The translations under genes were made by a program, and so were the position numbers. The notes under the pieces are model-generated. The model was not told where the DNA came from. It did no database searches and worked only from the letters and a program-made list of their open reading frames with translations. Positions 1 to 45,759 of a stretch of DNA of 64,000 nucleotides are shown here, piece by piece (position 1 is the stretch's first letter; every line of letters starts with the position of its first letter). This stretch comes from Glandiceps talaboti (taxonomy: Eukaryota > Hemichordata > Enteropneusta > Spengelidae), in contig NC_135570.1 of assembly GCF_964340395.1 (NCBI RefSeq), positions 15,003,322-15,067,321 on the forward strand. The letters are read 5' to 3'.

Positions 1-269
1 TGTTTATTGCAATGCTACTAAAATACACACCATACATTGTTTGTATATGTATGCATACTTTTAATAAGAAAACAGATTTCACATAAGTCACTGTAGTTTT
101 AATAAATGGATGTAGTAGTGTTAGTTGGTGTGGAATGAACTGACCTTTGAAACATGGATGATGTGATGCAGAATCTCTAGCCATCCAGTTTCCATGGTAA
201 TGGGAAGATGATTTACGTTGATTGCTCTTTTTTGTTTTATTTCAAATGACACTATTCTCAACTTTGCAG

Positions 270-323
270 GTCAGCTTGTAGCAAATGTAGCAAAAATAGC
301 AAGTCGAGGTCCAGCACCACTCA
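270..323 (+). CDS. Candidate variable-linker cassette exon of CaMKII
   Basis: This is a 54-base stretch with a pyrimidine-containing acceptor ending TTTGCAG and a GTAAGT donor. The next CaMKII exon (5105) needs one base from its predecessor, so a cassette exon here should be phase 1-1. Read that way the stretch is open and gives QLVANVAKIASRGPAPL plus split codons. CaMKII linkers are known for alternatively spliced short exons at this place. I do not recognise the peptide itself, and one other frame is also open, so this rests on splice sites and phase only. Confidence 0.35.
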
Positions 324-1708: not shown

Positions 1709-1721
1709 TGACCTCTGACCT
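1709..1721 (-). promoter_or_regulatory. Perfect DR1 nuclear-receptor-type element, copy 1
   Basis: The + strand reads TGACCTCTGACCT, which on the - strand is AGGTCA-G-AGGTCA, a perfect direct repeat with one-base spacing. It lies about 260 bases upstream of the decayed alternative start exon at 1984. A second, imperfect DR1-like AGGTTAAAGGTCA follows at 1730-1742. The same perfect 13-mer recurs upstream of the other two start exons. Known DR1 ligands include RXR, HNF4 and COUP-TF families; use here is inferred. Confidence 0.5.
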
Positions 1722-1983
1722 GATTTACAAGGTTAAAGGTCATAGAATGTTAGATATGACAGAAGATCTATGCAATGCAGTAAACCCTCTCTACTGCTAA
1801 TCAATTTGTGCATAGACGTTGGAGGTAGATCGTTTTCCAACTTCTGTAGTTTTTACAATCTCTGTGCATATACCTGGACATTGAAATTAACCTGCAACTT
1901 GACCCTTTGCATAGTTCATAAATTGTTTTCTGGATTTCTTCAGAAGAGAGTAATTTTTTTTGGCTAACTTGAAATTTTTTAAC

Positions 1984-2031
1984 ATGGATTCTTCCACCCA
2001 TTCACACCTCAAGGTGAAACCCAGGAGAAGG
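1984..2031 (+). pseudogene. Decayed alternative first exon (copy 1) inside the CaMKII gene
   Basis: ATG plus 48 bases, then a GTAAGA donor, clearly related to the start exons at 20696 and 29595. All three share ATGGATTCTTCCAC, ACACCTCAAG and CCCAGGAGAAGG, and 300 bases of upstream sequence is also related. This copy is one base shorter (48 against 49), so it ends in phase 0. Both possible partners downstream (linker exon 5105 and hub exon 8048) need phase 1, so it would join them out of frame. The likely reading is a relic of the ancestral internal promoter/first exon. It could still act as an untranslated leader. Confidence 0.55.
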
Positions 2032-5000: not shown

Positions 5001-5104
5001 TCATGTAACACACATTATAAATTATTGTCATGTGTAATAACCATTTTGTTTCCAAATTGCGGTGATTTGAAACCAACTCATGAGGCAGCATACTTTGTTT
5101 TCAG
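2032..5104. other. Intronic DNA of the CaMKII gene
   Basis: AT-rich sequence with no exon I can support. It contains degenerate tandem repeats built around 'AGTAGCCAATCAG' at about 3880-4165 and a short repeated 'TTGCTATGACAACAATGG' stretch near 4790-4905. Open frames of about 100 codons on either strand (2710-3015, 4574-4897) show no recognisable domain. Confidence 0.6.
3880..4165. repeat. Degenerate tandem repeat with CCAAT motifs
   Basis: About seven imperfect copies of a 35-45 base unit containing AGTAGCCAATCAG and CCCAGCACTATCTC. The spacing is irregular, which suggests an old, decaying array. Confidence 0.7.
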
Positions 5105-8100: not shown

Positions 8101-10293
8101 AACGGAGATTATGAAGCGTATACGTAAGTACTTCTTTTAACTTCCAACAGACATTTAGTTTAGATTTTGACAGACGTCATATTTTTCGTTCCCGACAGAA
8201 TCTTCTTTGACAGACACATATTTTAGTTCCCGACAAACACTGATTTTACCTTCAGACAGACGTACCTTTTTCTCTAAGGTTCAAACAGACACTGCTTGTA
8301 ACTTCTGACAGACATACACTTCCAACAGACACATCTGTCATATTTTGACAGACACATACCGGTATATTAGTTCCCCGAAAGACACCACTTTTATTTTCTG
8401 ACAGAAATGTACTTCTCTGAGCTTCCAACAGACACTTTTTTTTACCTGACAGACACTACCAGAAGGTTTATGGAAATGGTTAGATTTTGTCTGCCTGTCT
8501 CTGTCTAGTCACTTGTTTTGTAAATATATAGGCCAATGTCTTTCCTACATTTGTGTTTCTAACACGTACATATTCAGAAAAATATTGAGTCAATAACAGG
8601 AAAACTGAAGAAAAGTCTGTTTTGTTGTATTTATTACAGCAAGATATGTGATCCCCATTTAACCTGTTTTGAACCAGAGGCTATGGGTAATCTAGTGGAG
8701 GGCATGGAATTTCATAGATTTTATTTTGAGAATGGTAAGTATGTCTTGGTATATAGATTCAGTTACCATTTTTAAACAATATTGTGTTCAATATTTGTTG
8801 CATAATTGCGTCAGTTGTCTAATTGGTGTGATGAAATATGGGCAAAATATTTGGCTGGCTCTGCCCTATTTCTCAAATGATGGTGCCAATGGTAAGCCAC
8901 CACAGTCTTGAACAGAGCACACTAATTCGTGTACAGTGGTGTGTAAAGTGCAAGATTTGAACAAGAACTGATATACCGAAAATCAACAAGCAGTCCACTA
9001 CAAATGTACTGCATGCCACTCCCATCCCCACTCAGGGGATTGTTTACTACAAATTGTACTACATACCATTCCCACCCCCCACCCAATGGTTGTTCACTAT
9101 AAATTGTACTGCATACCACTTACATCCCCTACCCCTTCCACATTAGACAACATGATGCCAGACCAGCTGTTGTTTCGACCCCTTCCACTCACAGTAACTT
9201 TGGTTTGATATCTTTCTCTATTTACAGTTCTTTCTAAGAATAATAGAGCAAGAAATACAACTATTCTCAATCCACACGTACATCTGCTAGGAGAAGACGC
9301 TGCTAGTATTGCATATATTAGACTTACACAGTTTATTGATAGGTAAGTTATTGCATATATTAGACTTACACAGTTTATTGATAGGTAAGTTATTGCATAT
9401 ATTAGACTTACACCGTTTATTGATAGGTAAGTTATTGCATATATTAGACTTACACAGTTTATTGATAGGTAAGTTATTGCATATATTAGACTTACACAGT
9501 TTATTGATAGGTAAGTTATTGCATATATTAGACTTACACAGTTTATTGATAGGTAAGTTATTGCATATATTAGACTTACACAGTTTATTGATAGGTAAGT
9601 TATTGCATATATTAGACTTACACAGTTTATTGATAGGTAAGTTATTGCATATATTAGACTTGCACAGTTTATTGATAGGTAAGTTATTGCATATATTAGA
9701 CTTACACAGTTTATTGATAGGTAAGTTATTGCATATATTAGACTTGCACAGTTTATTGATAGGTAAGTTATTGCATATATTAGACTTACACAGTTTATTG
9801 ATAAGTAGGTTATTGCATATATTAGACTTACACAGTTTATTGATAAGTAGGTTATTGCATATATTAGACTTACACAGTTTATTGATAGGTAAGTTATTGC
9901 ATATATTAGACTTACACAGTTTATTGATAGGTAAGTTATTGCATATATTAGACTTACACAGTTTATTGATAGGTAAGTTATTGCATATATTAGACTTACA
10001 CAGTTTATTGATAGGTAAGTTATTACATAATAACCAAACCCAGCTGGCAATGAGCAGGTTTGAGCCATGACTGGTATATAGGCACATGATTTAACATCTC
10101 ATGAACCAAACTTGTGCTTAACTGAAAACTAGATATGCATAATTCTCATTTTAAAAAATGGTTTTCTATTCACAGAACTGGGTGTCCTGTCACCACGCAG
10201 TCTGAAGAAACCAGGGTGTGGCTCAAGAAAGATGCCAAATGGCAGAACGTACATTTCCACCGCTCAGGAGCTCCCAGTGCACCAGCAAAATAA
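5105..10293 (+). CDS. CaMKII: CaM kinase II, linker and association (hub) domain, 3' part of gene
   Basis: Five exons are visible: 5105-5188, 8048-8123, 8640-8734, 9228-9342 and 10176-10293 (TAA stop). The first encodes the conserved linker ([20 protein letters not shown]). The others encode the whole association domain, including [72 protein letters not shown] and WQNVHFHRS, ending SAPAK. Splice phases join without a frame break, and consensus GT/AG sites bound every exon. The hub assembles the dodecameric holoenzyme of this Ca2+/calmodulin-activated Ser/Thr kinase. The arginines equivalent to human CaMKII-alpha R433, R453 and R469 are present. The kinase and regulatory exons must lie before the window. 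The donor of the fourth exon lies in a 17-copy minisatellite. An AATAAA overlaps the stop codon, but nothing shows that it is used. Confidence 0.95.
5498..5905. repeat. 33-bp minisatellite
   Basis: About 12 copies of a unit resembling CCATTCAAGTGTCTACACCC followed by ATATTATCAGACT, in a CaMKII intron. The unit length is a multiple of three, so it keeps frames open by chance; no coding role is supported. Confidence 0.9.
7018..7074 (+). CDS. Candidate cassette exon between CaMKII linker and hub
   Basis: Acceptor CACTTAG is preceded by a pyrimidine-rich run; the donor is a weaker TTG|GTGAAT. The 57-base insert is phase 1-1, exactly the phase between exons 5105-5188 and 8048-8123. It is open only in that frame, giving (V)[18 protein letters not shown]; the other two frames contain TAG or TGA. 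Alternative splicing between linker and hub is well known for CaMKII. A Pro/Gly/Lys-rich insert fits, but I do not recognise it as a known isoform segment. Confidence 0.45.
7810..8045. repeat. Degenerate 'AATAACCATGACAACAA' repeats upstream of hub exon 1
   Basis: Several imperfect copies of AATAACCATGACAACAA alternate with TTTACTTTCAG-like tracts just before the acceptor of the first hub exon. The same arrangement precedes the equivalent exon in copies 2 (23500-23609) and 3 (33025-33144), so it was duplicated together with the hub exons. Confidence 0.65.
9309..10022 (+). repeat. 42-bp minisatellite made of a CaMKII exon end and its splice donor
   Basis: Exactly 17 units of 42 bases. Each unit repeats the last 34 bases of the third hub exon (coding [11 protein letters not shown]) plus the first eight intron bases GTAAGTTA. 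The array therefore contains 17 copies of one 5' splice site. Fifteen have the full ATAG|GTAAGT; units 12 (9771-9812) and 13 (9813-9854) carry the altered ATAAGTAGG. Units 3, 9 and 11 have single substitutions. The kinase frame meets TAA right after the first donor (GAT AGG TAA), so only use of the first donor yields a full hub. Confidence 0.95.
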
Positions 10294-17575: not shown

Positions 17576-18774
17576 ATGGTATGGATGGGTGGGTGGATGG
17601 ATCCTGGTTGGGGGGGGGGGGGTATACCACTGGTCAGATCTAGTAGGGGTATGTGGCCAATGTTGCCAACCCCAGACCTATTTTGACCAAAACCAATCTC
17701 TCATTGCAGACGATTCAAGTTATTAGAAGACCCCATTTTAGTCCAAAGGAAATAATCACCAGTATGAAAATGTCAACCAGTGAATTAGCTGGGGGAAATT
17801 CCAAGAAATTCTGAACTAGTCTGGAATTTATTATGTGGTTCCTTACAGGACCCCATTTTCATAGTCCAAACAAAATAAAAAATTGTGTAAAATGGACCCA
17901 TTTTAGACTCATCTCTACTAAACATACAGAACCCATTTTGAACCAAAGGGTGACAAACCCACCCCAAAGGGCAGCACATATATAACGTATATCTAATAGG
18001 CAGGAGTACCCCCACCCCCACCCCACCCCTGGGATGGATAATGTATATATCCAATGGCATTATAATAATCAATGGTAAATATATGTAAATATATTCCTAA
18101 CATGAAATACACATCCAAACATGTATTAAGTACAAAATAGAAAGAAACATGAGAGCAAATAACCAAAGCAATCTGCAAAATTTGATAACTTCTCAACACT
18201 GCAGACTTGGGATTGGAAATATATTGGTTCAGTTTGAACATACAAGTAATTCCTACCCATTCAGAGGTCAAATTATTGATTTGGATAAAGGTGTGGAGTT
18301 AACCCACTACCGACAGAAATGGGTAAACATGTTCGCTGATGTATAAACACGGAATGAATGCATTTTGAATAAAGTTTGACGCCTTTCTTTTGACAAAATT
18401 GTATCATTCGATACTATTTGAGCGTCATTTCGAATGCAGGTAACGTTCCATTGCTAAGTAGTTCCTCTCATTTGCATATCATTTGCATATATTATCGCCT
18501 GATATTGCTCATTTCAATACTTGATTGACAGGAGTATTTCAGCGTTTCGGCGCACTTTTCAGAAGACCGGCGCCTAAAATTTACATGTAAAGTATTTATT
18601 TACATTGAATGACCTTTGTAGGTGTCAGCCAGCTGATTATTGTTTACATTAATGACAGATAGATGCCTAGAGGAAACGACTTTCAAAAGGGACAAATTGT
18701 AGCATGCATCCATGAAGAAGGATATAACAACAGAGAAGTGCCAGAAGACTGGATATTTCTGAACGAACAAGTAG

Positions 18775-18775
<1 letters not shown>

Positions 18776-18847
<72 letters not shown>

Positions 18848-18848
18848 C

Positions 18849-18879
<31 letters not shown>

Positions 18880-18900
18880 GTGATAATAATGTAATAAATA
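18776..18900. repeat. (AAT)n microsatellite
   Basis: Trinucleotide AAT tract with rare interruptions. It sits just after the N-terminal transposase piece and produces poly-Asn or poly-Ile frames without meaning. Confidence 0.95.
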
Positions 18901-19050
18901 CTAGTATAATAATAATAGCACTTGTAAAGCGCCATATATCCTAAAAGTCCATACGCGCTGAAACACTACAAAAGCGATAAAAACTAGTGGAACACATACC
19001 AAAAGAGTCTCAAAGTTCACTGACAATTTAAAAAATCCCATGTAATATTA

Positions 19051-19396
19051 AAGTGACTTTTCTTTAATATTTTGTTTTTGCTTTTATTACAGGTGACACT
19101 TTCTAGTGACTTTTACCATGCTTTTTAAAAGCATCGTCGCAAACCACGGCCTGTTTTTACGGCAAGGTTCTTAACGCGCCTCCCTATGTAGTGGTAGAAA
19201 TACTAGTAATAACTCTGGTTTGCGAGAATGAATAAAAGTCACCAATGATACACAAGACTCACCGGTAAAAAGTACTTGTGATAGCAAAAAGTCACTTCTA
19301 GAAGTCAGTAATGATAAATAAGAATCACTGGTAAAAAGTCACTAGGAAGTGTCACCTGTAATAAAAGCAAAAAAAAATATTGAAGAAAAGTCACTT
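19051..19396. mobile_element. MITE with about 68-bp terminal inverted repeats
   Basis: The left end (19051-19118, starting AAGTGACTTTTCTT) and right end (19329-19396) are nearly perfect inverted copies. The central part is unrelated and contains a second MITE. There is no coding capacity. A target-site duplication is not clear. Confidence 0.8.
19132..19230. mobile_element. Small MITE (family A, copy 1), nested in the larger MITE
   Basis: 99 bases with ends CATCGTCGCAAACCA and, inverted, CATTCTCGCAAACCA. Related copies with the same ends lie at 32571-32669 and 62816-62925. Confidence 0.75.
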
Positions 19397-19409
19397 ATGT
19401 TAAAATTGC

Positions 19410-19935
19410 TTTTCTGAACAGGTGAGTCTTCACTTTAGTTTTAAAACACGATAGTTCATCACACTGTCTGATGTCAAGAGGTAGACTGTTCCATAAAGAC
19501 TGCTGCAGCACTGAAGAAAGCACGTTTCTCATACGATGATTTTACCGGATTAATTTCGACAAGTAGCTTGGACTTAGAGCGTAGATTACTGCTGGGTTCA
19601 TAACTTCAGAAGCTGGGATATGTATGGTGGAGCCGTGTCATGGAGTGCTTTATATGCAATCAGACGTACCTTGAATTCAATCCGTTCAGATATTGAAGCC
19701 AGTGGAGGTTTTGAAGAACTCCAGTAACGTGGTCATACTTTCTGGTTTTTGATAAATCGAGCGGCTGTGTTCTGTACAACTTCAAGCTGAAGTTTCCTTA
19801 TACTGCTGAGAGGAATACCAAAGCTGTTGCAATAATCTATCCTGGATGTAACAAAGGCATGGACTAGTAATTTGACTGCATCATCTGTAAGATATTTTCT
19901 GATTTTACCAATGACAATGTTCCTAATATACAACC
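19410..19935 (-). mobile_element. 3' fragment of a non-LTR retrotransposon reverse transcriptase
   Basis: Read on the - strand, broken frames give IRKYLTDDAVKLLVHAFVTS, RIDYCNS, LQLEVVQNTAARFI, KYDHVTGVLQNLHWL and KRAFFSAAAV. This is the conserved C-terminal region of CR1/Jockey-type reverse transcriptases. Several stops make it a relic. It abuts the Tc1 pieces on the other strand, so one element inserted into the other. Confidence 0.8.
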
Positions 19936-20504
19936 TCGAAAAGTTCCAAACAAGCGGAACTATGGTGAACAAGCCGCGTAGTGGTCGTCCTCGCGTCACC
20001 ACGGAGAGGGAAGATAGATTGTTAGCTAGATACAGTCTGGAAAACCGTATGAGAAATGCACCAGAAATTAGATCTCTTTAGAGTGTGTCAACCGTGAAAA
20101 ATGGGCTAGCTTCGGCAAATCTGTCACTAAACGTAAACCGCGCTACTCTGTACTCAGGCCTCGACGTAAAGAGGCACGGCTAAGATTCGAAGACTGGTCC
20201 CGAGTTTTGTGGACTGACAAATCAAATGTTTGCCTGTACAACAACTACGACATGAGATTTGTACGCAGACGACCCTGGGAAGCCTACAGTGAAATTGTAT
20301 CGTCCCATCCTTGAATTTGAAACATGGCGTGAGAAATGTAATGGTTTGGGGGTGTTTTTCAGCATTCATTCCGTGTTTAATACATCAGTGGACATGTTTA
20401 TCCATGTATATTAAGGTGTCGACACAGGGGTTCTACTTCCATGGTGCGACAATACTTTCTGTCTATAATGGGTTAACTCCACATCTTTATCCAAATCGAT
20501 AGTT

Positions 20505-20517
20505 TGACCTCTGACCT
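20505..20517 (-). promoter_or_regulatory. Perfect DR1 element, copy 2
   Basis: The same AGGTCA-G-AGGTCA (on the - strand) as at 1709, here about 180 bases before the start codon of the hub-only gene at 20696. It lies in a block of about 230 bases shared with copy 3 that probably holds the promoter and 5' leader. Confidence 0.5.
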
Positions 20518-20695
20518 GAGGTATAGGGTTCAATGTCAAAGAATGACAACTCTGACTGGAAGACCAATAACTACATTTACTTGCATCTGGACGTTGGAAC
20601 TTCAACCTGCAACCCACCCCTTTTTAATCTTGCAAAAAGTCAGATTTTGAACTCTAAGCTTTCTTAGAAGAGTTTGTTTTTTTCGACTAAGGACT

Positions 20696-23600
20696 ATGGA
20701 TTCTTCCACTACCGGCACACCTCAAGTTACAACCCAGGAGAAGGGTAAGTGTTTAAAGGGTAAGTAATTATCGGTAGCATTTTGGTACTATGCATGTTTC
20801 GTTCCTGCTCTTGGGAGGTAGGTGGTGTTAGGGAGCGACCAGTTTTTACGACCGGGGGGGCACCTTAATTTGGGACTCAAAGAAGGGGGGTCATCATTTT
20901 TACAAAGTCAATAAAGGGGGGGGTCACCATATTTTCAACAACTGAACGAAATCATGAACCACCCTGCTGTACTTAAATTTCCATACAACAAATGTATGTG
21001 CATACAATAAACCATAAACACATAAGAAATGAAATACCTTGAAATTTACTGGATGGTCTGACTCCAAAATCTGTGCCTACATTGACCTGAACATGTTGAA
21101 TTGCACACAAACATAGCCAATAGAGACACACTTTAAAATAATTTAATGAATTTGTATCTCTAAATGGTAACTGACCTCCACTGTGCATGTTTTCCCCAAA
21201 TTTTCTCACTTTCTACTTTATCTTTTTTTATTATCATTAGTGTCAATATGACTTGAAATGATTTAAACTTTTGAAACCCTAAAATTAGTGATTCTTTTAT
21301 GATATAACTAAGTTGTGTTTGTGGTTTACTTCTGAATGGTGCTCTCAATAGCCTCTGAATGGTGTTCATTTTTCAAAAAGCTCTTACCTCCCCCCACGCG
21401 CTTAAATAGCAGGTGCACACGCGCGTAGCGTGCACTTCTCCCATACTGTTTTCAGTTCTCTCCCGTACTTTGAAAGTTACTGAAACCCCAAGGTTTACAA
21501 TTATATTAACTCCATTTCTAATATCGTACTTTACAATTAGCTGAATTAATATATAATGGTAATAGTTCACTCAATCTAAGAGATATCCTAGAACTTTTGG
21601 TTACTAAACCATGAATATTTTGCATGTCCATGAACAGACAATCATACTTCTCATAGGGTTCCTGTCTAAAGAGCTTTATATATGTGAAGCAATGGATTTT
21701 GGTTAGCAATTTAACAGATACATTTGTACACTTAAAATTACTGTAAATGTAAGAAGTATAATTAACTATGCAGTGTGTTGTATTGTACTTTGAGAATCTA
21801 GAGTGTCTTTTGCAAGCACAAGAAGAATATTTCTTGTCAACAGATGTTGGGGGGGGGTCAGTGTATTTTTTTATTTGTCAGGGGGGGGGATTGTTTTGTG
21901 GATGAATCACAGGGGGGTCACTATTTTTAAGTACAGTAATAAAAATATACTGAGTGTTTACATTGTATATTTGTATTTGTTTAGACCCTGTATATCCTAG
22001 ATAAGTTTATTATTAATTGACACCAGTATTGTGTCACACATGCAGAGAAAAGGAATTCCCTGACGTTGAGGTAATTAGGGCATTCTACTGCTGGTTTGAT
22101 TGTTACAGCACTGGTGCTGAGATGGCGCTTACAGCATACAGACAACATTTTACACTAATTTACTTTATATACTAAAAAAGAATTCCTGCATTTTAATTGC
22201 CCAATTTAGTAGATTAATATTAAATCAATAAAAGATTTAAATAGTAGATTACTGATATAGATGAAAGAAAGTGCATTTGCGGATGATTTGACTTGTTTTT
22301 TGACCTGTGAAAAATCCGTCGAGGTGCTATTTCAAGTGTTAAAGAAATTCCAGTTGTGCTCTGGTCTGAAGGTTAACACAGAGAAGACGGAAGGGGTGTG
22401 GCTTGGCCCATGGAAGGGGAGAGGGGAGTTAAAGTTTGGGGTAAGATGGCCTACCGCCCCTGTCAAAATTGTGGGAGTCTATTTTGCATACAACCAGAGG
22501 GAGGTTGAAATAGTAAATAGTAGTACAGCACTAAATATAATGAAAAGTGTCATAAACACTTGGAAAACAAGAAAACTTTCCCTTTTTGGGAAAGTTCAAA
22601 TCATTAAAACTTTGGCTGTGTCTCAGTTTTCATATATATTAAATTGTGCTGTGCTCCCAAAAGATGTTTTCCAAAACATAAATAAGTTGATCTTCAACTT
22701 CCTCTGGGATTAACGGAACAAAGTTGCAAGGAAAACCATGATAGGGGAGGTGGGCCAAGGTGGACTGGGGTACCGGACCTGACCATAATGAAAAAACAAC
22801 AACGTATCCTAATAAAGAAATTCTTGAACCCTGACTTCACTCAACCCTGGACAACATTTGTGAAAAATGGGATAAAAATTGATCTTCAAATGTAATTACA
22901 ATATAAACACCCTACCCATTATTGGTGGATGTACACCCTTTTGGAGGGAATGTATGGGCCAGTGTGACAGAGGACTTCTATGGAGAATTCAATCAAATAA
23001 TTTGGAACAACAAACATATAAAGATAGGGGGAATGTCAATTTATTATCCGGAATTTGTTGAACATGGTATAATGAGAATTTCAGATCTGTATATGGAAAA
23101 TGGAATTATACCAGGGCTGTTCCTAGCAAAATCTGCCTAATTTTGTCAGACCCAGATCAGACACTTTTACTAAATTTCATAAGCCTTATAGTTAGAAAAT
23201 ACATTTACTACTGTAAAAAAAAGGAATCCCTTCCTGTGTTCAGAAAACTGTACAACCACTGAATTTAAACTACTTTATAAATATGAACACTTTATTGCAA
23301 AGAAAAACCACAAACTCATACCATTTCTAAAGAAATGGACCCCCCTCATTCCATATGTAACATAAATGGTAATGGGTTGCAATGTAAACATTGCCCTTTT
23401 GTAAACTGGAATGTAACATGACATGTATACACTTTACAAATAACACCCAATAAAAAAAACTTAATTACAAAAAAAATAAATAAATAAATAAATAAATAAC
23501 CATGACAACAAGTTATTTACTTTCAGTTTGTATATAGTAAACGTAACAACAACTTATCTTATTTACTTTGTAAACAATAACCATGACAACAAGTTGTGTT

Positions 23601-24623
23601 TACTTTCAGCTCGTAAAGAAGAAATAATCAAGTTGACAGAGTCACTCCTTGAAGCAATTGCTAACAGAGATTTTGAAGCATATACGTGAGTATATGTATA
23701 TACTACTATATGTCTGTCAGCTGTGTTCAACAAAACAAATAGAGGCCAGGGTCATTAGATTTCAAAGTCAATTCTCTGGGCTACCCCTTCACCAATTGAT
23801 ACGTATGAATGGAATCTTCCTTCAAATGTTTACAATGATATGATGTCGTCCACTTAGAATTCGCCAATAATCTTTTCATCACTATGAAGTTTCTCAGTTT
23901 AAAGCGACCAGTCTGTAACTTAATCAGGTATACTTTTGTTTCATAATTAAGTGATTAACTTTAAAGTTACATATATATATACAATGCATGTATAACTTTA
24001 TCTCAAAATATTATGTATTCTTCTAGGAAACTATGTGATCCCAATCTGTCGTGTTTTGAGCCTGAGACTGTGGGCCATCTAGTGAAAGGGCTGAAATTTC
24101 ATAAATACTATTTTGATAACGGTAAGTGTATTCATATTCGATATACTGTCATAACATATCGCTTTCATAATGTGGTCATTCTGGCTGAAAATTAGAAAAA
24201 TTAATGTATCCACCCCCGAAAAATTATCTGTAGTAAATAGTGAAATAATGTGCCACGGAGGCATGAATATGGTGGGCCCTGGAGGAGACATACGTATAAC
24301 CAGTAGATAAAATTGAATTATGTCTATTTGACTCAGAAGGCGCTTTTCACAGAACATATTGTGATAACCTTTAAGTTTAATATTTGACTTTCGTCATAAA
24401 ACCACACACCTCAGTTATTTGTGGCAATGGAACACCAGTCACCCCTTTTCGTTGCGTCGGCAGAAAGATACGTTTTGACTTCTGAGACACTCTCTCTCAC
24501 TCGATTGATAAAGCTGATACTGACAGACAGACAGGAGCACACATGCATACACACACGCACCCACACACACACACACCCACACACATACACACGCATACAC
24601 GCTCGCACATGCACATACATACA

Positions 24624-24657
<34 letters not shown>

Positions 24658-25500
24658 CACACACATGCACACATACATACATACATAAATACATACATAC
24701 ATACATACATACATACATACATACATACATACATACATACATACATACATACATACATACGGGTGCTGCACATAGTAATCTATTTCATTTTTAAATTGAA
24801 ACCCCATGCTGGGACTGTTTAATTCAAAATGTAGCTAACTTTCATAATTCTTAATTTGTTTGTTGTCTGTTCCGATCCTGCATTCACAGGTATCTTACAA
24901 AATCGAAGCAGGAGTACAGTTGTTAATCCACACGTAATTCTCCTGGGAGAAGATGCTGCTAGTATTGCATATGTTAGATTAAGACAACATAAGGATGAGT
25001 AAGTCACTGCAAACACCTCACTCTCTCACACAGTCCTCATAGCTTGGCATCACTAGGGTTGTTTTGTATGTACTGATATCTACTATCATGCAAAGTTCCT
25101 TATCCCTCTGCTGTTTTTGTTGTTGTTTTTGTTGTTACTGTTATTTTAATATTTTACTTGAGTTTACACATGATAATCAGCTAGCTACTATGAACACTGA
25201 GGCCAGTCATTACGCAGCTACTTATAGAAATACAGACAAGTATTCTATACTTAAGTATCTTGGCAATAATTTAACCATGACAACTGAGGGGACACCCCCA
25301 CCCCCACTCCCTTTGTTTAAATTTTAATGAATGATGAAAAAGTACATTTCTGTCTATCAAATTCAAGTTTATATTTTGTCATTCACAGAAATGGCCGCCC
25401 TGTCACCACACAGTCTGAAGACACCAAGGTGTGGCTCAAGAAAGATGCCAAATGGCAACTTATACATTTCCACCAGTCAAGCATGACACAAACAAAATGA
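20696..25500 (+). CDS. Hub-only CaMKII-derived protein, copy 2 (146 aa)
   Basis: Five exons: 20696-20744 (start), 23610-23685, 24027-24121, 24890-24998 and 25389-25500 (TGA). Lengths of 49, 76, 95, 109 and 112 sum to 441, an unbroken frame. The start exon encodes [16 protein letters not shown] and ends with the single G that the hub exon needs. The rest is a full association domain ([57 protein letters not shown]). No kinase exon lies between the CaMKII stop and this gene. Compared with gene 1, the arginines matching human R453 and R469 are Lys (SEDTKVW) and Gln (HFHQS). Two transposon-derived blocks (20.83-21.94 and 22.26-23.50 kb) interrupt intron 1. The likely role is hub assembly or mixing into CaMKII holoenzymes, comparable in layout to mammalian alpha-KAP (inferred). 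Exons 2-5 are certain homologues; the first exon is inferred from phase, donor and duplication. Confidence 0.8.
20830..21940. mobile_element. Insertion present in copy 2, absent from copy 3
   Basis: Copies 2 and 3 share sequence up to the GTTCCTGCTCTTGG region and again from AAAATATACTGAGTG. Copy 2 carries about 1.1 kb between these points against about 0.25 kb in copy 3. Both ends of the extra DNA carry repeated GGGGGGGTCA-type runs (20856-20930 and 21850-21920). There is no recognisable coding sequence. Its type is unknown. Confidence 0.5.
22261..23503 (+). mobile_element. 5'-truncated non-LTR retrotransposon (L1-like)
   Basis: An open stretch of 150 codons begins at the reverse transcriptase active-site motif FADD ([11 protein letters not shown]). 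It continues through [34 protein letters not shown] and [11 protein letters not shown], as in L1-type elements. After a stop, [16 protein letters not shown] follows. The 3' end is an A-rich tail with AATA repeats (23465-23503). Homology with copy 3 stops at about 22260 and resumes after the tail, which marks a 5'-truncated insertion into intron 1 of hub copy 2. Confidence 0.8.
24540..24760. repeat. (CA)n/(ACAT)n microsatellite in intron 3 of hub copy 2
   Basis: CA-rich then ACAT-rich tract. Copy 3 has an equivalent but longer tract at the same intron position (34045-34320), so the seed predates the duplication. Confidence 0.95.
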
Positions 25501-25779
25501 AAGACTTTGTACGCTTTTAGACGTTTGATTTTGCATAAAGGTCTCACAATATTCTATTCACAACAATTGAATAACACATTATATGACTCATAAATATCAT
25601 TTGATTTCTTTTTCCAGATATGTAGGTATACTGTAACATTCTACGGTCAGTATGATTAATTTGTACTAACACCTTTCATTCTTATTACATTTGTAATTTT
25701 TTACAAGATCATTCAACTACACATGTATTTAATTTTAAACAAAGATTTCTTTAGTTTTATTATGTTGTTGAAAAAACAA

Positions 25780-25827
25780 GACAGACAGACAGACAGACAG
25801 ACGGATGGATGAACAGACAGACGGACG

Positions 25828-25865
<38 letters not shown>
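25780..25865. repeat. (GACA)n microsatellite
   Basis: CAGA/CGGA tetranucleotide tract just downstream of hub copy 2. Copy 3 has the matching tract at 35638-35680, which marks the shared end of the duplicated segment. Confidence 0.9.
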
Positions 25866-25866
<1 letters not shown>

Positions 25867-28800
25867 TGAATATACCGGTACTGTACCCAGTATGCCTAGC
25901 TATAGACATGGGTAAATTGGTCACTGAATATACCGGTACTGTATGCCTAGCTATACATCTGGGTGAATTGGTCTGCCACTAAATATACTGTATGCCTAGC
26001 TATACACGTGGGTAAATTGGTCACTGAATATACTGTATACCTAGCTATACACCAGGGTAAATTGGTCACTGAATATACTGTATACCTAGCTATACACCAG
26101 GGTAAATTGGTCACTGAATATACTGTATACCTAGCTATACATCTGGGTGAATTGGTCACTAAATATACTGTATGCCTAGCTTTACATCTGGGTAAATTGG
26201 TCACTGAATATACTGTATGCCTAGCTATACACCTGGGTAAATTGGTCACTGAATATACTGTATGCCTAGCTATACATCTGGGTAAATTGGTCACTGAATA
26301 TACCGGTACTGTATACCTAGCTATACACCAGGGTAAATTGATCACTGAATATACTGGTACTGTATACCTAGCTATACACCAGGGTAAATTGGTCACTGCA
26401 TATACTGTATGCCTAGCTATACATCTGGGTGAATTGGTCACTGAATATACTGTATGCCTAGCTATACATCTGGGTGAATTGGTCACTGAATATACTGTAT
26501 ACCTAGCTATACACCAGGGCAAATTGGTCACTGCATATACTGTATGCCTAGCTATACATCTGGGTGAATTGGTCACTGAATATACTGTATACCTAGCTAT
26601 ACACCAGGGCAAATTGGTCACTGCATATACTGTATGCCTAGCTATACATCTGGGTAAATTGGTCACTGAATATACTGTATGCCTAGCTATACATCTGGGT
26701 AAATTGGTCACTGAATATACTATATGCCTAGCTATACATCTGGGTAAATTGGTCACTGAATATACTATATGCCTAGCTATACACCAGGGTGAATTGGTCA
26801 CTGAATATACTGTATGCCTAGCTATACACCAGGGTAAATTGGTCACTGAATATACTGTATGCCTAGCTATACATCTGGGTAAATTGGTCACTGAATATAC
26901 TATATGCCTAGCTATACATCTGGGTAAATTGGTCACTGAATATACTATATGCCTAGCTATACACCAGGGTGAATTGGTCACTGAATATACTGTATGCCTA
27001 GCTATACACCAGGGTAAATTGGCCACTGAATATACTATATGCCTAGCTATACACCAGGGTGAATTGGTCACTGAATATACTGTATGCCTAGCTATACACC
27101 AGGGTAAATTGGTCACTGAATATACTATATGCCTAGCTATACACCAGGGTAAATTGGTCACTGAATATACTATATGCCTAGCTATACACCAGGGTGAATT
27201 GGTCACTGAATATACTGTATGCCTAGCTATACACCAGGGTAAATTGGTCACTGAATATACCGGTACTGTATACCTAGCTATACACCAGGGTAAATTGGTC
27301 ACTGAATATACTGTATGCCTAGCTATACACCAGGGTAAATTGGTCACTGAATATACCGGTACTGTATACCTAGCTATACACCAGGGTAAATTGGTCACTG
27401 AATATACCGGTACTGTATACCTAGCTATACACCAGGGTAAATTGGTCACTGAATATACCGGTACTGTATGCCTAGCTATACACCAGGGTAAATTGGTCAC
27501 TGAATATACCGGTACTGTATGCCTAGCTATACACCAGGGTAAATTGGTCACTGAATATACTGTATGCCTAGCTATACACCAGGGTAAATTGATCACTGAA
27601 TATACTGTATGCCTAGCTTTACACCAGGGTAAATTGGTCACTGAATATACTGTATACCTAGCTATACACCAGGGTAAATTGGTCACTGAATATACTGTAT
27701 GCCTAGCTATACATCTGGGTAAATTAAGTGGTCACTGAATATACTGTATGCCTAGCTATACATCTGGGTAAATTGGTCACTGAATATACTGTATGCCTAG
27801 CTATACATCTGGGTAAATTGGTCACTGAATATACTGTATGCCTAGCTATACACATGGGTAAATTGGTCACTGAATATACCGGTACTGTATACCTACCGGC
27901 AGCTATACATCTGGGTAAATTGGTCACTGAATATACTGTATACCTAGCTATACATCTGGGTAAATTGGTCACTGAATATACTGTATACCTAGCTATACAT
28001 CTGGGTAAATTGGTCACTGAATATACTGTATACCTAGCTATACACCAGGGTAAATTGGTCACTGAATATACTGGTACTGTATACCTAGCTATACATCTGG
28101 GTAAATTGGTCACTGAATATACTGTATGCCTAGCTACACATCTGGGTAAATTGGTCACTGAATATACTGTATGCCTAGCTATACATCTGGGTAAATTGGT
28201 CACTGAATATACTGTATACCTAGCTATACACCAGGGTAAATTGGTCACTGAATATACTGTATACCTAGCTATTCATCTGGGTAAATTGGTCACTGAATAT
28301 ACTGTATGCCTAGCTATTCATCTGGGTAAATTGGTCACTGAATATACAGTATGCCTAGCTATACATCTGGGTAAATTGGTCACTGAATATACTGTATACC
28401 TAGCTATACATCTGGGTAAATTGGTCACTGAATATACAGTATGCCTAGCTATACATCTGGGTAAATTGGTCACTGAATATACTGTATGCCTAGCTATACA
28501 TCTGGGTAAATTGGTCACTGAATATACTATATGCCTAGCTATTCATCTGGGTAAATTGGTCACTGAATATACAGTATGCCTAGCTATACATCTGGGTAAA
28601 TTGGTCACTGAATATACGGTACTGTATACCTAGCTATACATCTGGGTAAATTGGTCACTGAATATACTGTATACCTAGCTACACATCTGGGTAAATTGGT
28701 CACTGAATATACTGTATACCTAGCTATACATCTGGGTAAATTGGTCACTGAATATACGGTACTGTATACCTAGCTATACATCTGGGTAAATTGGTCACTG

Positions 28801-29215
28801 AATATACTGTATACCTAGCTATACATCTGGGTAAATTGGTCACTGAATATACTGTATACCTAGCTATACACCAGGGTAAATTGGTCACTGAATATACTGT
28901 ATGCCTAGCTATACATCTGGGTAAATTAAGTGGTCACTGAATATACTGTATGCCTAGCTATACATCTGGGTAAATTGGTCACTGAATATACTGTAAGTGC
29001 CTAGCTATACATCTGGGTAAATTGGTCACTGAATATACTGTATGCCTAATTAAGCTATACATCTGGGTAAATTGGTCATTGAATATACTGTATGCCTAGC
29101 TATACATCTGGGTAAATTGGTCCCTGAATATACTGTCATGCCTAGCTATTCATCTGGGTAAATTGTCATTGAATATACCGGTACTGTATACCTAGCTATA
29201 CATCTGGGTGAATTG
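25866..29215. repeat. 3.35-kb minisatellite of 45/51-bp units, about 70 copies
   Basis: The unit is GGTAAATTGGTCACTGAATA then TACTGTATGCCTAGCTATAC and ATCTG or ACCAG; a six-base CCGGTA insert makes 51-bp variants. Types alternate in patches (blocks of the CATCTG and CACCAG forms), as expected from unequal exchange. Both lengths are multiples of three and lack stops, so long frames stay open on both strands. The array ends exactly where homology between copies 2 and 3 starts (CAGACTTGGGATTG at 29216; compare 18202). Confidence 0.95.
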
Positions 29216-29383
29216 CAGACTTGGGATTGAAAATATAATGGTTCATTTTGAACATACAAGCAATGCCTACCTTGGGTCACTCAGCATTTCAACATGTGAG
29301 TGTATGTATATACACATCATATCAATCATTATAATTACCTGTGTAACTAGGTTAACTCCACACCTTTATCCAAATCAACAGTT

Positions 29384-29396
29384 TGACCTCTGACCT
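29384..29396 (-). promoter_or_regulatory. Perfect DR1 element, copy 3
   Basis: The third occurrence of the 13-base AGGTCA-G-AGGTCA, about 200 bases upstream of the start exon at 29595. Spacing to the start codon is close to that in copy 2. Confidence 0.5.
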
Positions 29397-29594
29397 GAGG
29401 TATAGGGTTAAATGTCAAAGAATGACAACTGTGACTGGAAGAACAATTGTTAACATGTGAGTCATAACTACATTTATTTACATCTGGACGTTGGAACTTC
29501 AACCTGCAACCCACCCCCTTTTATAATCTTGCAAAAAGTCAGATTTTCAACTCTGGGCTTTATTGGAAGATTTTGGTTTTTTTGACTAAGGGCT

Positions 29595-31368
29595 ATGGAT
29601 TCTTCCACTACCAGCACACCTCAAGTTACAACCCAGGAGAAGGGTAAGTGTTCAAAACTTGTTGAAATGATGAATTGTTCTTTTATTTCTAGAGTAATTA
29701 TCGGTAGCATTTTGGTACTATGCATGTTTCGTTCCTGCTCTTGGTAGGTGAGTGGGTGTTATTTACCATTGTTTTATCATATTCTATACATTAATTGTAA
29801 TAGTTAAGTTGTTGCAGTTATTCTTTGTTGCATGAACTGTACATTTTACATAATTTTCCATGACACCTGTAATAAGTGTTGGTTAAAATTTCCACAGTGA
29901 AACAATATTCCTTGGTATTATAAAGCATATGCAGACCTGGAACAGTAATTCAATGCAAGCTGGTTTTCATTCACCTACACCTGTGACCTCAAATTTATGT
30001 ACCAGGGATAAAAATATACTGAGTGTTTACATTGTATGTTTGTATTTTTTTAGACCCTGTGCATCCTAGATAAGTTTATTATTAATTGTTACCAGTATTA
30101 TGTGTAATAACCCAAGGTAATAACCTGATCCAGGACACATGCAGCAAAAAAGAATTCCCTGACATTGGGAGAAGGGCATTCTGCTGCTGGTTTAATTGTT
30201 ACAGAGTACATACAGCCCTGGTGCTGACATGAACTCGAGTACATTAGGTCCTGTGACGCAACGTTAATTTATTCAAAATTACATGAATAATTCATATATT
30301 CATGTAATAACTTAATATGTTCAAAAACGCTAAAAATGTGACCATCAGATCACAGTTACAGACGTTTTATTTGGCCACAGAACTTACATAAAGTAATAAA
30401 CTACAATTTAATGTAAATTTCAGTGTGTAAAGACATTATTCTCAACTAAGCAAGAACTGGGGTCAATGAACTTTTCTCAATTGCTGATTTTTGCATTTGA
30501 AATTAATTTTCGAGCATAAGATCGAATATTCCCGTCCATTTTTTTCTGCCAAGTATTTAGTAACATTCAGTACTTAAATAATCATGGGGGAATGGATAGG
30601 TTATTTTGATCCTTTTCGATGTCTCAACAAATATGTCTATTTTACAGATAATTAGATAAACCTTGTAATTTTAACATTTATGTTTACTAAAAACCAGATT
30701 TACTTAGCTATGTCTTCCTACCTAGATATTGTAACATGATAAATGGAAACAATGAATAACATCTCAAGTCGGCGATTGTTGGAGTCTTTGTCCATGAAAT
30801 TTCGATCTTACAAAACTTACCATTTTCTATGTATAAATAATGACGTCATCACCATAATTTGCATACGAAAAACAAATCACACCAAATTTCAAAAGAACAT
30901 TATACAGTGAAGGACTGGTGTTAATTTCATAGTGTTGGGGAGACTTTATCCTGATTTTTAATACTGTCATTGATTTTATACTCAATCACATGCCATAATG
31001 TACTCGAGAAGCTGACAGGCCCCATTTTACACTAATTTACTTTATATAAAAGAATTCCTGCATTTTAATTGCACAATTTAATAGATTAATAATTAATAAA
31101 AGATTTAATGGTAGATTATCGATATGTACATGAGTCCCCTCTCCCCTCCATGTTAAAAGTCATTAACACAACCAATGGATTAATACTATACTCTAGCATG
31201 GTGTGTGTGCATGTGTGTGTCTGTTTGTTTAATACTATACTCTAGCATGGTGTGTGTCTGTCTGTCTGTCTCTGTCTGTCTGTCTGTGCATGTGTGTCTG
31301 TCTGTCTGTCTGTCTGTCTGAAGTTCAGTAAAGTTTAATATGTATTATGTCTGAAGTGTCTATATTAA

Positions 31369-31421
<53 letters not shown>

Positions 31422-34075
31422 TGACTTACAGTCAAAGACCACATGACCACTTACTATGAAATTAGGGGATTCTACTGGCAGTATTAAGTTTTGAGATCAC
31501 AGGGAGCCTGCAGGAAGTGTGTTACAAATAAATAAATAAATAAATAAATAAATACACAAACAAACAAACAAAATATGCATGGGTAAATATCATTGTAAAC
31601 TCATGTATAACTATATATAAGAATGTATATATGTGTGCCTGTATACTATTGAAATAATATACTATCTATACAAACACCACTGGATGAGTATCTATAGAAA
31701 CATAGGATATTATTTACTAATTTTTTGTTTGTTTATTTATTTATTTATTTATTTATTTTAACACGGTTCCTGGGCACCCTGTGGTGAGATTGTTCAATAA
31801 ATGGCAAAAGATTAATAAATATGTAAAAAGTTTGTTATTGTACATACAATAATAAAGTTTTTACACATTTGCTTTAGCTTTTTGCAATTTATTGAGTTAC
31901 AAACAAGGGCTTGGTATAAGTTGTTTCACACTGATTTTTCAAGTAAGAAGCCATGATAAAATTGATTTATAAATTAAAAATCTAAAATAAATACCCAATC
32001 CTCATCAATATAGCCACTTTAGTACAGCTGTTCATAGCAACCATAACCATGCCTAGCAACAGCCAAATAGCAGTCTCTTTTGCAAAGATAATAGTGTTGG
32101 GTAGCCAAGTGAAGAAACATTATCAAGAAACGAATACTGGTGTATCTAGCAACAAAGACCACGCCCATAACAAAGGACTCAATATCCCTAACAACTCGCT
32201 AAGACCACGCTCATAGCAACAACCAAATGCCAGTGTCTTTTGCAAGGATAACAGCAGTGTTGGGTAGTCAAGTGAATCATCAATAAAGAAAATAAATGCT
32301 GATATGCCTAGCAAAAAGCCTGCAACCCCACCCATAACAACGAACTCATGTCCCTAACACAAAGAACACACCCATAGCAACAGATTCAAATATGCCTAGA
32401 AACAAAGACCACACCCATAAAAACTACCAAATTTCAATGTTTTTTTTTACAAAAATGACATCAGGGATGTGTAATAAAGTGACTAAACATTCATAAAATG
32501 GAAACAATCATACTTAGCAACTATAACCACGCCCATAGCAACAGCAAAAGTGATGTTATCCAGTACATAGCATCGTCGCAAAGCACAACCGTTTTACGGT
32601 ACGAGCCGGTCCCTACTGTTTTATTTCAAAGTGTAGCAGAAGAAATGATAGCTCTGGTTTGCAAGAATGGTACATAGATAATAAGTGGAATGGGTAGGTA
32701 TTTGAAAGAACACAACTATTCCTAGCAACAAAGATCACACCCATAACAACAACCAATTGCAATGCTGTATGTCTTTCTAGATAGCTATAAGTAAGAGGTA
32801 AACAAGTAAATGAGTATCTTTCAAAAATAAACTGAAATGTACATAACACAACAACAAGGAGTTAACAGTTACTCTATGCAGTTATACACTATAACACCCT
32901 TAGCCGTATTTTTCATTCCTACAGGTAGAGGATGTCTATTTGGAATTTCGTATCCATGGCAATGCAATAGTCTATCACATACGCGTGTTTACAGTCACTG
33001 TGGTTATTTATCTGTAGCTTATAAACAATAACCACGACAACAAGCTGTTATTTACTTTCAGTTTGTACACAGTAACCATAATAACAAAATATTTTATTTA
33101 CTTTGTAAACAATAACCATGACAACAAGTTGTGTTTACTTTCAGCTCGTAAAGAAGAAATAATCAAGTTGACAGAGTCACTCCTTGATGCAATTGCTAAC
33201 GGAGATTTTGACGCATATACGTGAGTATATGTATATACTACTATATAAAGTCTGTCGGCTGTGTTCAACAGAATAAATAACTCATAGAGGGTCGTTACAT
33301 TTGAAAAAAACCAACGACAATTCTCAGGACTACCCCATCACCAATTAATATGTATCAACGGAAACCTTGCATAAAATGTATGCAATGACTTAAAGTTTGA
33401 TGATGACTTTCACTTGGAATTAGCCCATAATCCTTTCATCACAGCTACAATATATGAAATTTCTCAGTTTAAAACGACCAGTCTGTAATAAATTTACCGG
33501 AGTACACTTTTGTTTCATAATTCAATGATTAATAACTTTAACGTAATATGCATGTATAACTTTATCTCAAAATATTATGTATTCTTATAGCAAACTGTGT
33601 GATCCCAATCTGTCGTGTTTTGAGCCCGAGGCTGTGGGCCATCTCGTGAAAGGATTGAAATTTCATAAATACTATTTTGATAACGGTAAGTGTATTCATA
33701 TTCGATATACTGTCATAACATATCGCTTTCATAATGTGGTCATTCTGACTGAAATTTAGAAAAATTAATGTATCCACCTCCGAAAAATTATCTGTTGTAA
33801 ATAGTGAAATAATGTGTAGCATGAATACCGTGGGCCCTGGAGGAGACATTACGTATAACCAGTAGATAAAATTTAATTATGTCTATTTGATTCGGAGGGC
33901 GCTTTTCACAGAACATATTGTGATAACCTTTAAGTTTAATATTTGACCTTCGTCATAAAACCACACACCTCAGTTATTTGTGGCAATGGAACACCAGTCA
34001 CCCCTTTTCGTTGCGTCAGCAGAAAGGTACGTTTTGACTTCTGAGACACACACACACACACTCTCTCTCTCTCTC

Positions 34076-34135
<60 letters not shown>

Positions 34136-34291
34136 CCCCCTCTCTCTCTCGATTGATAAAGCTGATATAGACAGACAGATAGACAGGCATACATGCACAT
34201 ACACACACACACACACACACACATACATACATACATACATACATACATACATACATACATACATACATACATACATACATACATACATACA

Positions 34292-34322
<31 letters not shown>

Positions 34323-35368
34323 GGGTGCTGCACATAGTAATCTATTGCAAAATGTAGCTAATTTTCAGAATTCTTAATTTGTTTGTTGTCTGTTCCGATT
34401 CTGCATTCACAGGTATCTTACAAAATCGAAGCAGGAGTACAGTTGTTAATCCACACGTAATTCTCCTGGGAGAAGATGCTGCTAGTATTGCATATGTTAG
34501 ATTAAGACAACATATGGATGAGTAAGTCACTGCAAACACCTCACTCTCTCACACAGTCCTCATAGCTTGGCATCACTAGGGTTGTTTTGTATGTACCGAT
34601 ATCTACTATTGTGTACCCTCTTTGACCACTTAAAGGCTAACCGTTCGTTGATGTGTTTAATACTGCGATGCTCCGTGTTATCGCGAAGCTCGAGAGTGGT
34701 CTCAGTAACGCGTCAACGAATGGTTAGCCCTGTGTAGTCGATGAGGGCTCACAGTACAAGGATATTCGGGTACAATTATGCGGTAGGTATCGGTACGTAG
34801 AAATTTAAAACAACCCTTTCTGCTAGCGACACTCCGAGACTGTAGAGAGTTTGTGAAAACACTCTCATGTAGTTAATTTTATTCAGTAATTGACAAATTG
34901 AAAAATGGAGCATTACTTTTATATTAACATTACCAAGGAGTTGCAAAGTTCCATATCCCTCTGCTGTTTTTGTTGTTGTTTTTTAAATATTTTACTTGAG
35001 TTTACACATGATAATCAGCTAGCTACTATGAACAGCGAGGTCAATCATTACGCAGCTACTTAGAAATTCCATGGATGTATTAGTGAGAAAAATACAGACA
35101 AGTATTCTATACTTTAGTATCTTGGCATTAATTTAACCATGACAACTGAGGGGACACCCCCACCCCCACCCCCACTCCCTTTGTTTAAATTTTAATGAAT
35201 TATGAAAAAGTACATTTCTGTCTATCAAATTCAAGTTTATATTTTGTCATTCACAGAAATGGCCGCCCTGTCACCACACAGTCTGAAGAAACCAGGGTGT
35301 GGCTCAAGAAAGATGCCAAATGGCAGAACGTACATTTCCACCGTTCAAGCGTGACACAAACAAAATGA
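29595..35368 (+). CDS. Hub-only CaMKII-derived protein, copy 3 (146 aa)
   Basis: Exons: 29595-29643 (start, [16 protein letters not shown]), 33145-33220, 33591-33685, 34413-34521 and 35257-35368 (TGA). The lengths 49, 76, 95, 109 and 112 are identical to copy 2, and the frame is unbroken. The hub includes [72 protein letters not shown] and [10 protein letters not shown]. Unlike copy 2 it keeps the arginines matching human R433, R453 and R469, so its binding pocket looks more ancestral. The C-terminal tail (SVTQTK) differs from gene 1 (SAPAK) but matches copy 2. The function is inferred: hub oligomers, or co-assembly with the kinase. The first exon assignment rests on phase, donor and parallel structure. 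Confidence 0.8.
30234..31008. mobile_element. 775-bp insertion with 13-bp terminal inverted repeats
   Basis: Ends are CTCGAGTACATTA and TAATGTACTCGAG. GCTGACA occurs just outside both ends, consistent with a 7-9 base target duplication. Copy 2 lacks the insert at the matching site (near 22120). There is no coding sequence, so it looks like a non-autonomous DNA element. Confidence 0.65.
31195..31430. repeat. (TCTG)n and (GT)n microsatellites
   Basis: TCTG tetranucleotide tract, then a GT run of about 44 bases, in intron 1 of hub copy 3. Short AAAT and TTTA tracts follow at 31529-31551 and 31732-31757. Confidence 0.9.
32030..32560. repeat. Degenerate repeat around CCTAGCAACAAAGACCACGC
   Basis: About eight imperfect copies of GCCTAGCAAC...ACCACGCCCATAACAAC, some with a longer shared part (AATAGTGTTGGGTAGCCAAG) at 32088-32107 and 32250-32269. 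No open frame of note. Confidence 0.7.
32571..32669. mobile_element. Small MITE (family A, copy 2)
   Basis: 99 bases, ends CATCGTCGCAAAGCA and, inverted, CATTCTTGCAAACCA; the same family as 19132-19230 and the same length. Confidence 0.7.
34045..34320. repeat. (CA)n, (CT)n and (ACAT)n microsatellites
   Basis: Composite simple repeat in intron 3 of hub copy 3, homologous in position to 24540-24760. The CT tract is private to this copy. Confidence 0.95.
34611..34945. mobile_element. Insertion with fold-back core in hub copy 3
   Basis: About 330 bases absent from copy 2, where the flanks meet near 25086. Inside, GGCTAACCGTTCGTTGA (34635-34651) and its inverse TCAACGAATGGTTAGCC (34713-34729) form a near-perfect stem. 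The outer flanks (34611 and 34760 regions) are weakly inverted too. Confidence 0.55.
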
Positions 35369-35637
35369 AAGAATTTGTACTCTTTGCTTATTCTAGACGT
35401 TCGATTTTGCATAGATGTCTCACAATATTCTATTCACAACAATTGAATAACACATTATATGATAAATATGATAAATATCATTTGATTTCTTTTTCCAGAT
35501 ATGTAGGTATACTGTAACATTCTACGGTCAGTATGATTACTTTGTACTAACGCCTCTGATTCTTATTAATTTTTTACAAGATTATTCAACTGCACATGTA
35601 TTTCATTTTAAACAAAGGTTTCTTTTGTTTTATATTG

Positions 35638-45721: not shown

Positions 45722-45759
<38 letters not shown>

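Follow-up and report, generated by a model that had tools for sequence, protein, structure and literature searches.

Two tandem hub-only genes derived from the CaMKII association domain lie downstream of a CaMKII gene in Glandiceps talaboti

Kinase-free products of the CaMKII hub are already known as isoforms. The closest described case, alpha-KAP, has a complete hub and no kinase and arises from an alternative promoter of the CAMK2A gene (PMC5882894). Here, we describe two hub-only genes, H2 and H3, that stand in tandem downstream of a CaMKII gene in a 64,000-nt stretch of the genome of the hemichordate Glandiceps talaboti (the window, to which all coordinates refer; the CaMKII, H2 and H3 exons and the 13-bp repeats described below lie on the + strand). 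We call the parental CaMKII hub H1; it is carried by the Glandiceps CaMKII protein P0133. Like alpha-KAP, H2 and H3 are kinase-free and have a complete association domain. Unlike alpha-KAP, which is an isoform made from an internal promoter of the kinase gene and includes that gene's linker, they are separate genes with their own start exons and no linker exon. The hub-truncated CaMKII-beta-H splice variants, in which altered hubs are reported to change assembly partners (PMC5882894), are the reverse of H2 and H3, as in them the kinase is retained and the hub is partly lost. Stand-alone CaMKII_AD-like proteins resemble H2 and H3 in having a single-domain hub fold (PDB 3h51, E = 9e-5), but they are distant, whereas H2 and H3 group among hemichordate CaMKII hubs. 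What differs here is the occurrence of stand-alone, tandem hub-only genes, which are undescribed in the titles and abstract openings of the CaMKII literature among the matches listed, a scope that takes in few subscription papers.

Rebuilt exon by exon, H2 and H3 each comprise five exons of 49, 76, 95, 109 and 112 bp (441 bp), separated by gt...ag introns throughout, with an open reading frame (ORF) of 146 amino acids plus a stop. In H2, a start exon ending in phase 1 (20696..20744) is followed by hub exons at 23610..23685, 24027..24121, 24890..24998 and, with the stop, 25389..25500. The corresponding exons of H3 are at 29595..29643 (again phase 1), 33145..33220, 33591..33685, 34413..34521 and 35257..35368. 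The H2 start exon lies 10.4 kb and the H3 start exon 19.3 kb past the stop of the kinase gene, and the two differ at 1 of 49 bp. The parental hub is encoded at 8048..8123, 8640..8734, 9228..9342 and 10176..10293 (with stop), its translation being that found in P0133, and hub exon 1 begins in the same phase in H1, H2 and H3. An earlier note on this DNA had proposed two 441-base hub-only frames with identical exon lengths and preserved phases; the rebuild bears this out, and the junctions it gave, 20744/23610 and 29643/33145, are exact.

Both translations match the Pfam family CaMKII_AD (PF08332) over nearly the whole profile, H3 with E = 2.5e-47 (160.7 bits, profile positions 1-126 of 128) and H2 with E = 1.7e-44 (151.5 bits, positions 1-127), against a gathering cut-off of 22.1 bits. 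H2 also matches the hub structure 2w2c in PDB (E = 2.2e-49). As judged from these matches, H2 and H3 almost certainly fold as hubs. An AlphaFold model of H3 from a 22-row alignment is of moderate quality (mean predicted local distance difference test score, pLDDT, 73.4; predicted template modelling score, pTM, 0.44), and none of our claims draws on it. Neither 146-residue ORF contains a kinase domain or a calmodulin-binding element, and the units lack the acidic linker as well. A protein search with H2 returned 17 proteins at E <= 0.001 from 37 candidates. The best of them, the NCBI protein P0001 from Glandiceps talaboti (2 member sequences in its 90% cluster), is 92% identical to H2 and, at 146 amino acids, is letter for letter the translation of H3, so an independent gene model begins with the same MDSSTT peptide. 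NCBI annotates it simply as 'CaMKII delta chain-like', although it has no kinase. Apart from the P0001 cluster, the 17 proteins include no kinase-free Glandiceps isoform. Ptychodera and Saccoglossus are absent from this list as well, although the CaMKII of both species is in the database, and this reflects annotation rather than the genomes. The 1.5 kb that follow each stop contain no AATAAA or ATTAAA.

A cognate of the start exon, overlooked by the earlier note, lies within the parental CaMKII gene at 1984..2031, in the intron upstream of the linker exon at 5105..5188. It is 85% identical to the H2 start exon (over 54 bp, E = 7e-9) and 84% identical to that of H3 (over 63 bp, E = 6e-10). It is 48 rather than 49 bp long, and its ATG does not read in frame into either the linker or the hub exons, reaching a stop whichever of the two the exon is joined to; the residues TPQ-x-x-TQEK are legible in the other frame. 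Homology extends up to 260 bp upstream of the cognate, where the sequence aligns to the regions preceding H2 and H3, with local scores of 74 and 81 against a maximum of 60 in 300 shuffles. Five further noncoding stretches from the parental locus, each compared with H2 against 100 shuffles, served as a yardstick. Three of them, including the intron directly after the start exon, did no better than their shuffles; the two that did were the 3' flank and the end of the intron that precedes hub exon 1. The 13-bp direct repeat TGACCTCTGACCT matches exactly three times in the 64 kb, once before each start exon: at 1709..1721, 275 bp upstream of the parental cognate, at 20505..20517, 191 bp upstream of the H2 ATG, and at 29384..29396, 211 bp upstream of the H3 ATG. 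It did not occur in 100 shuffles. We take it to resemble a direct repeat 1 (DR1) nuclear-receptor site in form, and it is a candidate only.

Thus, the internal first exon, its upstream sequence and the four hub exons make up two further tandem units that read MDSSTT...-hub. As the start exon and part of the upstream region are found in the parental intron, parent and copies have in common an alpha-KAP-type internal first exon, which strengthens the earlier proposal that such an internal product was the source of these genes. On the simplest reading of the sequence, this exon would once have served a kinase-free transcript and been duplicated together with the hub exons, after which the parental version ceased to be coding. 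The opposite order, in which the exon was first non-coding and gained its coding use in the copies, may also apply. We rejected a retrocopy origin because the introns are kept. A tblastn search of the first introns of H2 and H3 gave no convincing trace of a linker exon (other matches E 1.5 or worse).

The region upstream of H2 adjoins an insert of about 2.2 kb (18261-20514) that H3 lacks. It is bounded by an inverted repeat (18261-18319/20456-20514) that extends into the H2 copy of TGACCTCTGACCT, and it holds fragments that we take to resemble a Tc1/mariner transposase. A transposon-borne source of the start exon was considered and is probably wrong, since the parental 13-mer lies in otherwise homologous sequence. 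A reverse-transcriptase fragment lies in the first intron of H2 (22261-22713; RVT_1, 22.5 bits, below the Pfam cut-off of 29.6).

In detail, the parallel that the earlier note drew with alpha-KAP is not supported. The alpha-KAP N-terminus is hydrophobic, with a 19-residue hydropathy maximum of 2.6 in the fish proteins P0045 and P0089 and 2.3-2.9 in six such proteins, whereas the start peptide of H2 and H3 is hydrophilic and rich in Ser and Thr (hydropathy -1.4), with no hydrophobic anchor. A scan of the parental gene from 1 to 5104 for phase-1 start exons of the alpha-KAP-like hydrophobic kind reached a hydropathy of just 0.96 at best. Downstream of the linker exon, 5190-8047 contains frames with hydropathy 2.32 (6470/6473-6626) and 1.77 (6229-6316), which have weak donors and were not weighed against chance; a hydrophobic, alpha-KAP-like start exon may lie there. 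The position of the start exon is a point of likeness: in P0045 and P0089 the KKxDGVK linker stretch follows immediately after the special start, and the parental cognate at 1984 likewise sits in the intron before a linker exon, with the vertebrate position being inferred from proteins rather than DNA. A kinase-free CaMKII model from the annelid Paralvinella palmiformis, P0025, has a hydrophobic N-terminus like that of fish alpha-KAP, hinting that such starts occur outside vertebrates; the resemblance is weak evidence (2 of 1,000 shuffles are equally good).

Against the parental hub (130 codons), the maximum-likelihood ratio of nonsynonymous to synonymous rates (dN/dS, or omega) is 0.326 for H2 (p 8e-5) and 0.266 for H3 (p 5e-6). 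Between the copies it is 0.43 over 130 codons (p 0.09) or 0.51 over 146 codons (p 0.16). On the dN/dS check proposed in the earlier note, copies against parent are not near 1 (0.27-0.33), and H2 against H3 is not significantly below 1 (0.43-0.51). Branch omegas of 0.67 for H2 and 0.03 for H3 are likewise not significantly different from 1. As a noncoding yardstick, we aligned eight hand-chosen segments of the H2 and H3 units (1,694 bp, simple repeats omitted), which differ by 145 substitutions and 26 indels. The 441 coding bp carry 22 substitutions where 37.5 are expected (P 0.004) and no indels where 6.8 are expected (P 0.001). When the stem leading to both copies was simulated as neutral, 0 of 4,000 runs at each of four divergences escaped both stops and frameshifts. 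Neither gene looks like a pseudogene, as frames and splice sites are intact and indels and substitutions are both in deficit, and a neutral stem is strongly disfavored. H3 is the conserved copy and H2 the diverging or decaying one; after its split from H3, H2 cannot be told from a neutral sequence.

A tree of 25 hubs places H2 and H3 among hemichordate CaMKII hubs as a fully supported pair. The fork that joins them to these hubs has support of 88/82, and the tree does not single out an exact partner. Their stem carries about 1.0 changes per site, compared with 0-0.05 for the CaMKII hubs of Glandiceps, Ptychodera and Saccoglossus. Lytechinus, in the same group, is likewise long (1.06), so long-branch effects are possible. 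The hub-only lineage has thus changed far faster than the parental hub while retaining an open frame. On a 19-protein panel that defines 49 invariant and 80 variable sites, direct comparison with H1 shows avoidance of invariant sites at p 0.03 for H3 and p 0.06 for H2, and the changes specific to H2 show no preference, with 3 at the 49 invariant sites and 5 at the 80 variable ones (p 1.0). Synonymous divergence (dS) from the parent varies by exon in a mosaic fashion, being high in exon 2 (1.3-2.3) and exon 3 (0.8) and low in exon 1 (0.13-0.20) and exon 4 (0.25-0.32), with 17 to 26 synonymous sites behind each value. This is as expected if exons 1 and 4 were homogenized by gene conversion, in which case the duplication is older than the average divergence suggests.

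The hub of both copies has diverged at its docking groove. We number residues as in CaMKII-alpha, via zebrafish P0089, and residues named in the literature land on the right letters. Glu355, Glu359, Glu390 and Asp393 are described as edging the groove between subunits on which the basic regulatory segment docks, opening the ring, and a triple charge-reversed peptide does not compete (PMC4859805). A charge-reversed peptide, termed C, is reported to cause no hub disassembly (PMC7538161). Both copies have Lys at 390 and 393 (codons 24085-24087 and 24094-24096 in H2, 33649-33651 and 33658-33660 in H3). Across 240 further aligned proteins, a set with many mutual isoforms, neither position is ever Lys or Arg: 390 is Glu in 223, Val in 14 and another residue in 3, and 393 is Asp in 211, Glu in 23 and another residue in 6. 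Pattern scoring, which dropped 10 of 241 fetched proteins that have no hub start by pattern, scored 108 of 109 other distinct hubs and likewise found Lys or Arg in none. Net hub charge goes from -1 in the parent to +1 in H3 and +2 in H2. Compared with hubs defined by an acidic groove, H2 and H3 thus fall outside, with 355 and 359 acidic and 390 and 393 Lys; alpha-KAP differs from them here too, its groove not having diverged in this way. Full-length hemichordate CaMKII (P0133, P0134, P0140) has the same hub exon structure, shares the locus in the case of P0133, and has the VWLKKDxKW stretch in common with H2 and H3, but they differ from it in having no kinase, regulatory segment or linker, in K390/K393, and in their long stem.

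A second set of residues separates the two copies. The ligand pocket of the gamma-hydroxybutyrate (GHB) type is formed by His395, Arg433, Arg453 and Arg469, and in CaMKII-alpha R469Q is reported to abolish ligand binding while R453Q keeps about 7-9% (PMC12148480). H3 retains all four residues, Arg453 and Arg469 being encoded in its last exon, whereas the last exon of H2 encodes Lys453 and Gln469. Position 453 is Arg in 240 of 240 other proteins, and H2 alone among H1, H2 and H3 has Lys453 and Gln469. Position 469 is less strict, being Cys in 114 of the 240 (for example, human gamma, lamprey gamma and Hemitrygon beta).

We propose, with middling confidence and from sequence features, that H2 and H3 are two protein-coding, kinase-free CaMKII subunits that would enter rings and alter ring opening. 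Their products would fold as hubs and join CaMKII rings beside kinase subunits, lowering the kinase content per ring. The regulatory segment, which is basic, reportedly docks at the acidic groove edge and cracks the ring; the Lys-edged grooves would therefore be poor docking sites, and mixed rings might differ from pure CaMKII rings in how they open or exchange subunits. The earlier note had suggested that such products tune holoenzyme size or composition by mixing with the kinase; mixing remains part of our proposal, but a hub that diverged at its docking groove points to more than passive size tuning. If co-assembly is true, the locus is a natural experiment on whether the regulatory segment opens the hub via the acidic groove and on the weight of subunit exchange in vivo, and the charge-reversed hub is a ready-made test construct. 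A more specific version, which we regard as rather improbable, has an alpha-KAP-like internal transcript turning into a tandem gene family of ring-locking subunits, an encoded brake on ring opening and subunit exchange; in it, coding use would have been lost in the parental gene, the groove charge reversed, and the promoter element of the ancestral internal transcript retained.

Several points count against this proposal. Two of the four groove acids are retained in both copies (Glu at 355; Glu or Asp at 359). The 2016 eLife paper describes the groove residues as still awaiting hub mutants (PMC4859805), peptide B, which has no positive charges, still disassembles the hub, albeit more slowly, and a figure legend has peptide C binding the hub despite the lack of disassembly (PMC7538161), so groove charge is not the whole story. 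Subunit exchange in CaMKII is itself disputed (PMC10468207). Phe397 belongs to the core of the lateral interface, where an Ala mutant releases dimers (PMC4859805), and both copies have Tyr at this position, as do 9 of the 240 other proteins. The evidence for constraint has soft spots as well. Noncoding divergence is uneven (4.2% to 16.9%), and three of the eight segments, at 4.2-4.5%, are no faster than the coding sequence (5.0%), which makes the substitution test dependent on the faster-diverging segments. The simulated zero arises because the intron indel rate was applied; by stops alone, the probability of a neutral stem is 0.15 to 0.01. Finally, avoidance of invariant sites on the stem is weak: changes hit 9 of the 49 invariant and 27 of the 80 variable sites (p 0.07).

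The alternative that survives best, though we still consider it unlikely, is that H2 and H3 are real genes whose products have separated from CaMKII, forming rings of their own only, with a new scaffold or ligand-binding role. The long stem would fit this, as would the invariant sites changed on it, among them 397 (Phe to Tyr) and 435 (Thr to Arg), and isolated hubs are reported to make rings or spirals without kinases (PMC4859805). It sits less well with exons 1 and 4, which have stayed near the parental hub as if homogenized (dS 0.13-0.32 versus 0.8-2.3 in exons 2 and 3, on few sites each), or with the retention of Q436, T446, Y398 and F399. Less probable again is that the Lys groove acts as a partner switch, attracting the acidic linker (TIEDED) of neighboring CaMKII subunits, which would take the place of the regulatory segment in tethering or opening mixed rings. 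The N. vectensis CaMKII-B acidic linker folds at pH 4.2 onto the same groove beside acidic hub residues (PMC4859805), Lys would abolish the repulsion between the two, and H2 and H3 have no acidic linker themselves; however, this docking has been termed a likely low-pH artifact (PMC7538161). We give little credence to the H2 and H3 hub exons being alternative 3' ends that are spliced to upstream kinase exons, with the start exons incidental. The shared phase of hub exon 1 would allow it, but the three full-length Glandiceps models seen, P0133, P0141 and P0142 (the last representing 4 members), all use hub 1, H3 is represented by a separate NCBI protein that begins with the start peptide, and the start exons of H2 and H3 differ at a single base. 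That both genes are decaying duplicates without function is least credible of all: the H2 branch omega, the lack of variable-site preference in H2-specific changes and Lys453 at a position that is Arg in all 240 other proteins lean that way, but the introns are kept (so the copies were not retroposed), both frames and all splice sites are intact, indels and substitutions are in deficit, the neutral simulation disagrees, and the H3 branch omega is 0.03, albeit not significant alone.

The parental gene has further exons in the window, assigned by splice sites and phase. These are the variable-linker exon GQLVANVAKIASRGPAPL at 270..323, which is present in the NCBI isoform P0142, the linker exon at 5105..5188 mentioned above, and an optional linker exon at 7018..7074, found in isoforms P0141 and P0142. 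Hub exon 3 runs into an array of 42-bp units (9307-10029, 17.2 copies, 98% matches), in which the unit is the 3' end of that exon with its 5' splice site. The array yields 15 GATAGGTAAGT donors, two more units being altered, and read-through of the first donor meets a stop immediately after FIDR. A second array, at 46679-47209, has 8.6 copies of a 62-bp unit made of an exon end, presumably like that of an epidermal growth factor (EGF) domain, and its CAGGTAAG donor, giving 8 donors in a row. Two independent minisatellites of exon end plus donor within 64 kb are striking, and such minisatellites are not a subject in the titles and abstract openings among the literature matches listed. The gap between H2 and H3 is filled by a 45-bp minisatellite of about 72 copies (25890-29215), and the long ORFs on both of its strands are repeat artifacts. 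On the - strand, 37170-38354 is a frame that stays open from stop to stop over 394 residues and includes a DXD glycosyltransferase domain (PF04488, 45.7 bits). The region 44874-63917 holds a gene or genes with many exons, which we take to be HYR-like and EGF-like, and contains an internal duplication (49532-55812 versus 56635-62385) whose pieces are 71-92% identical.

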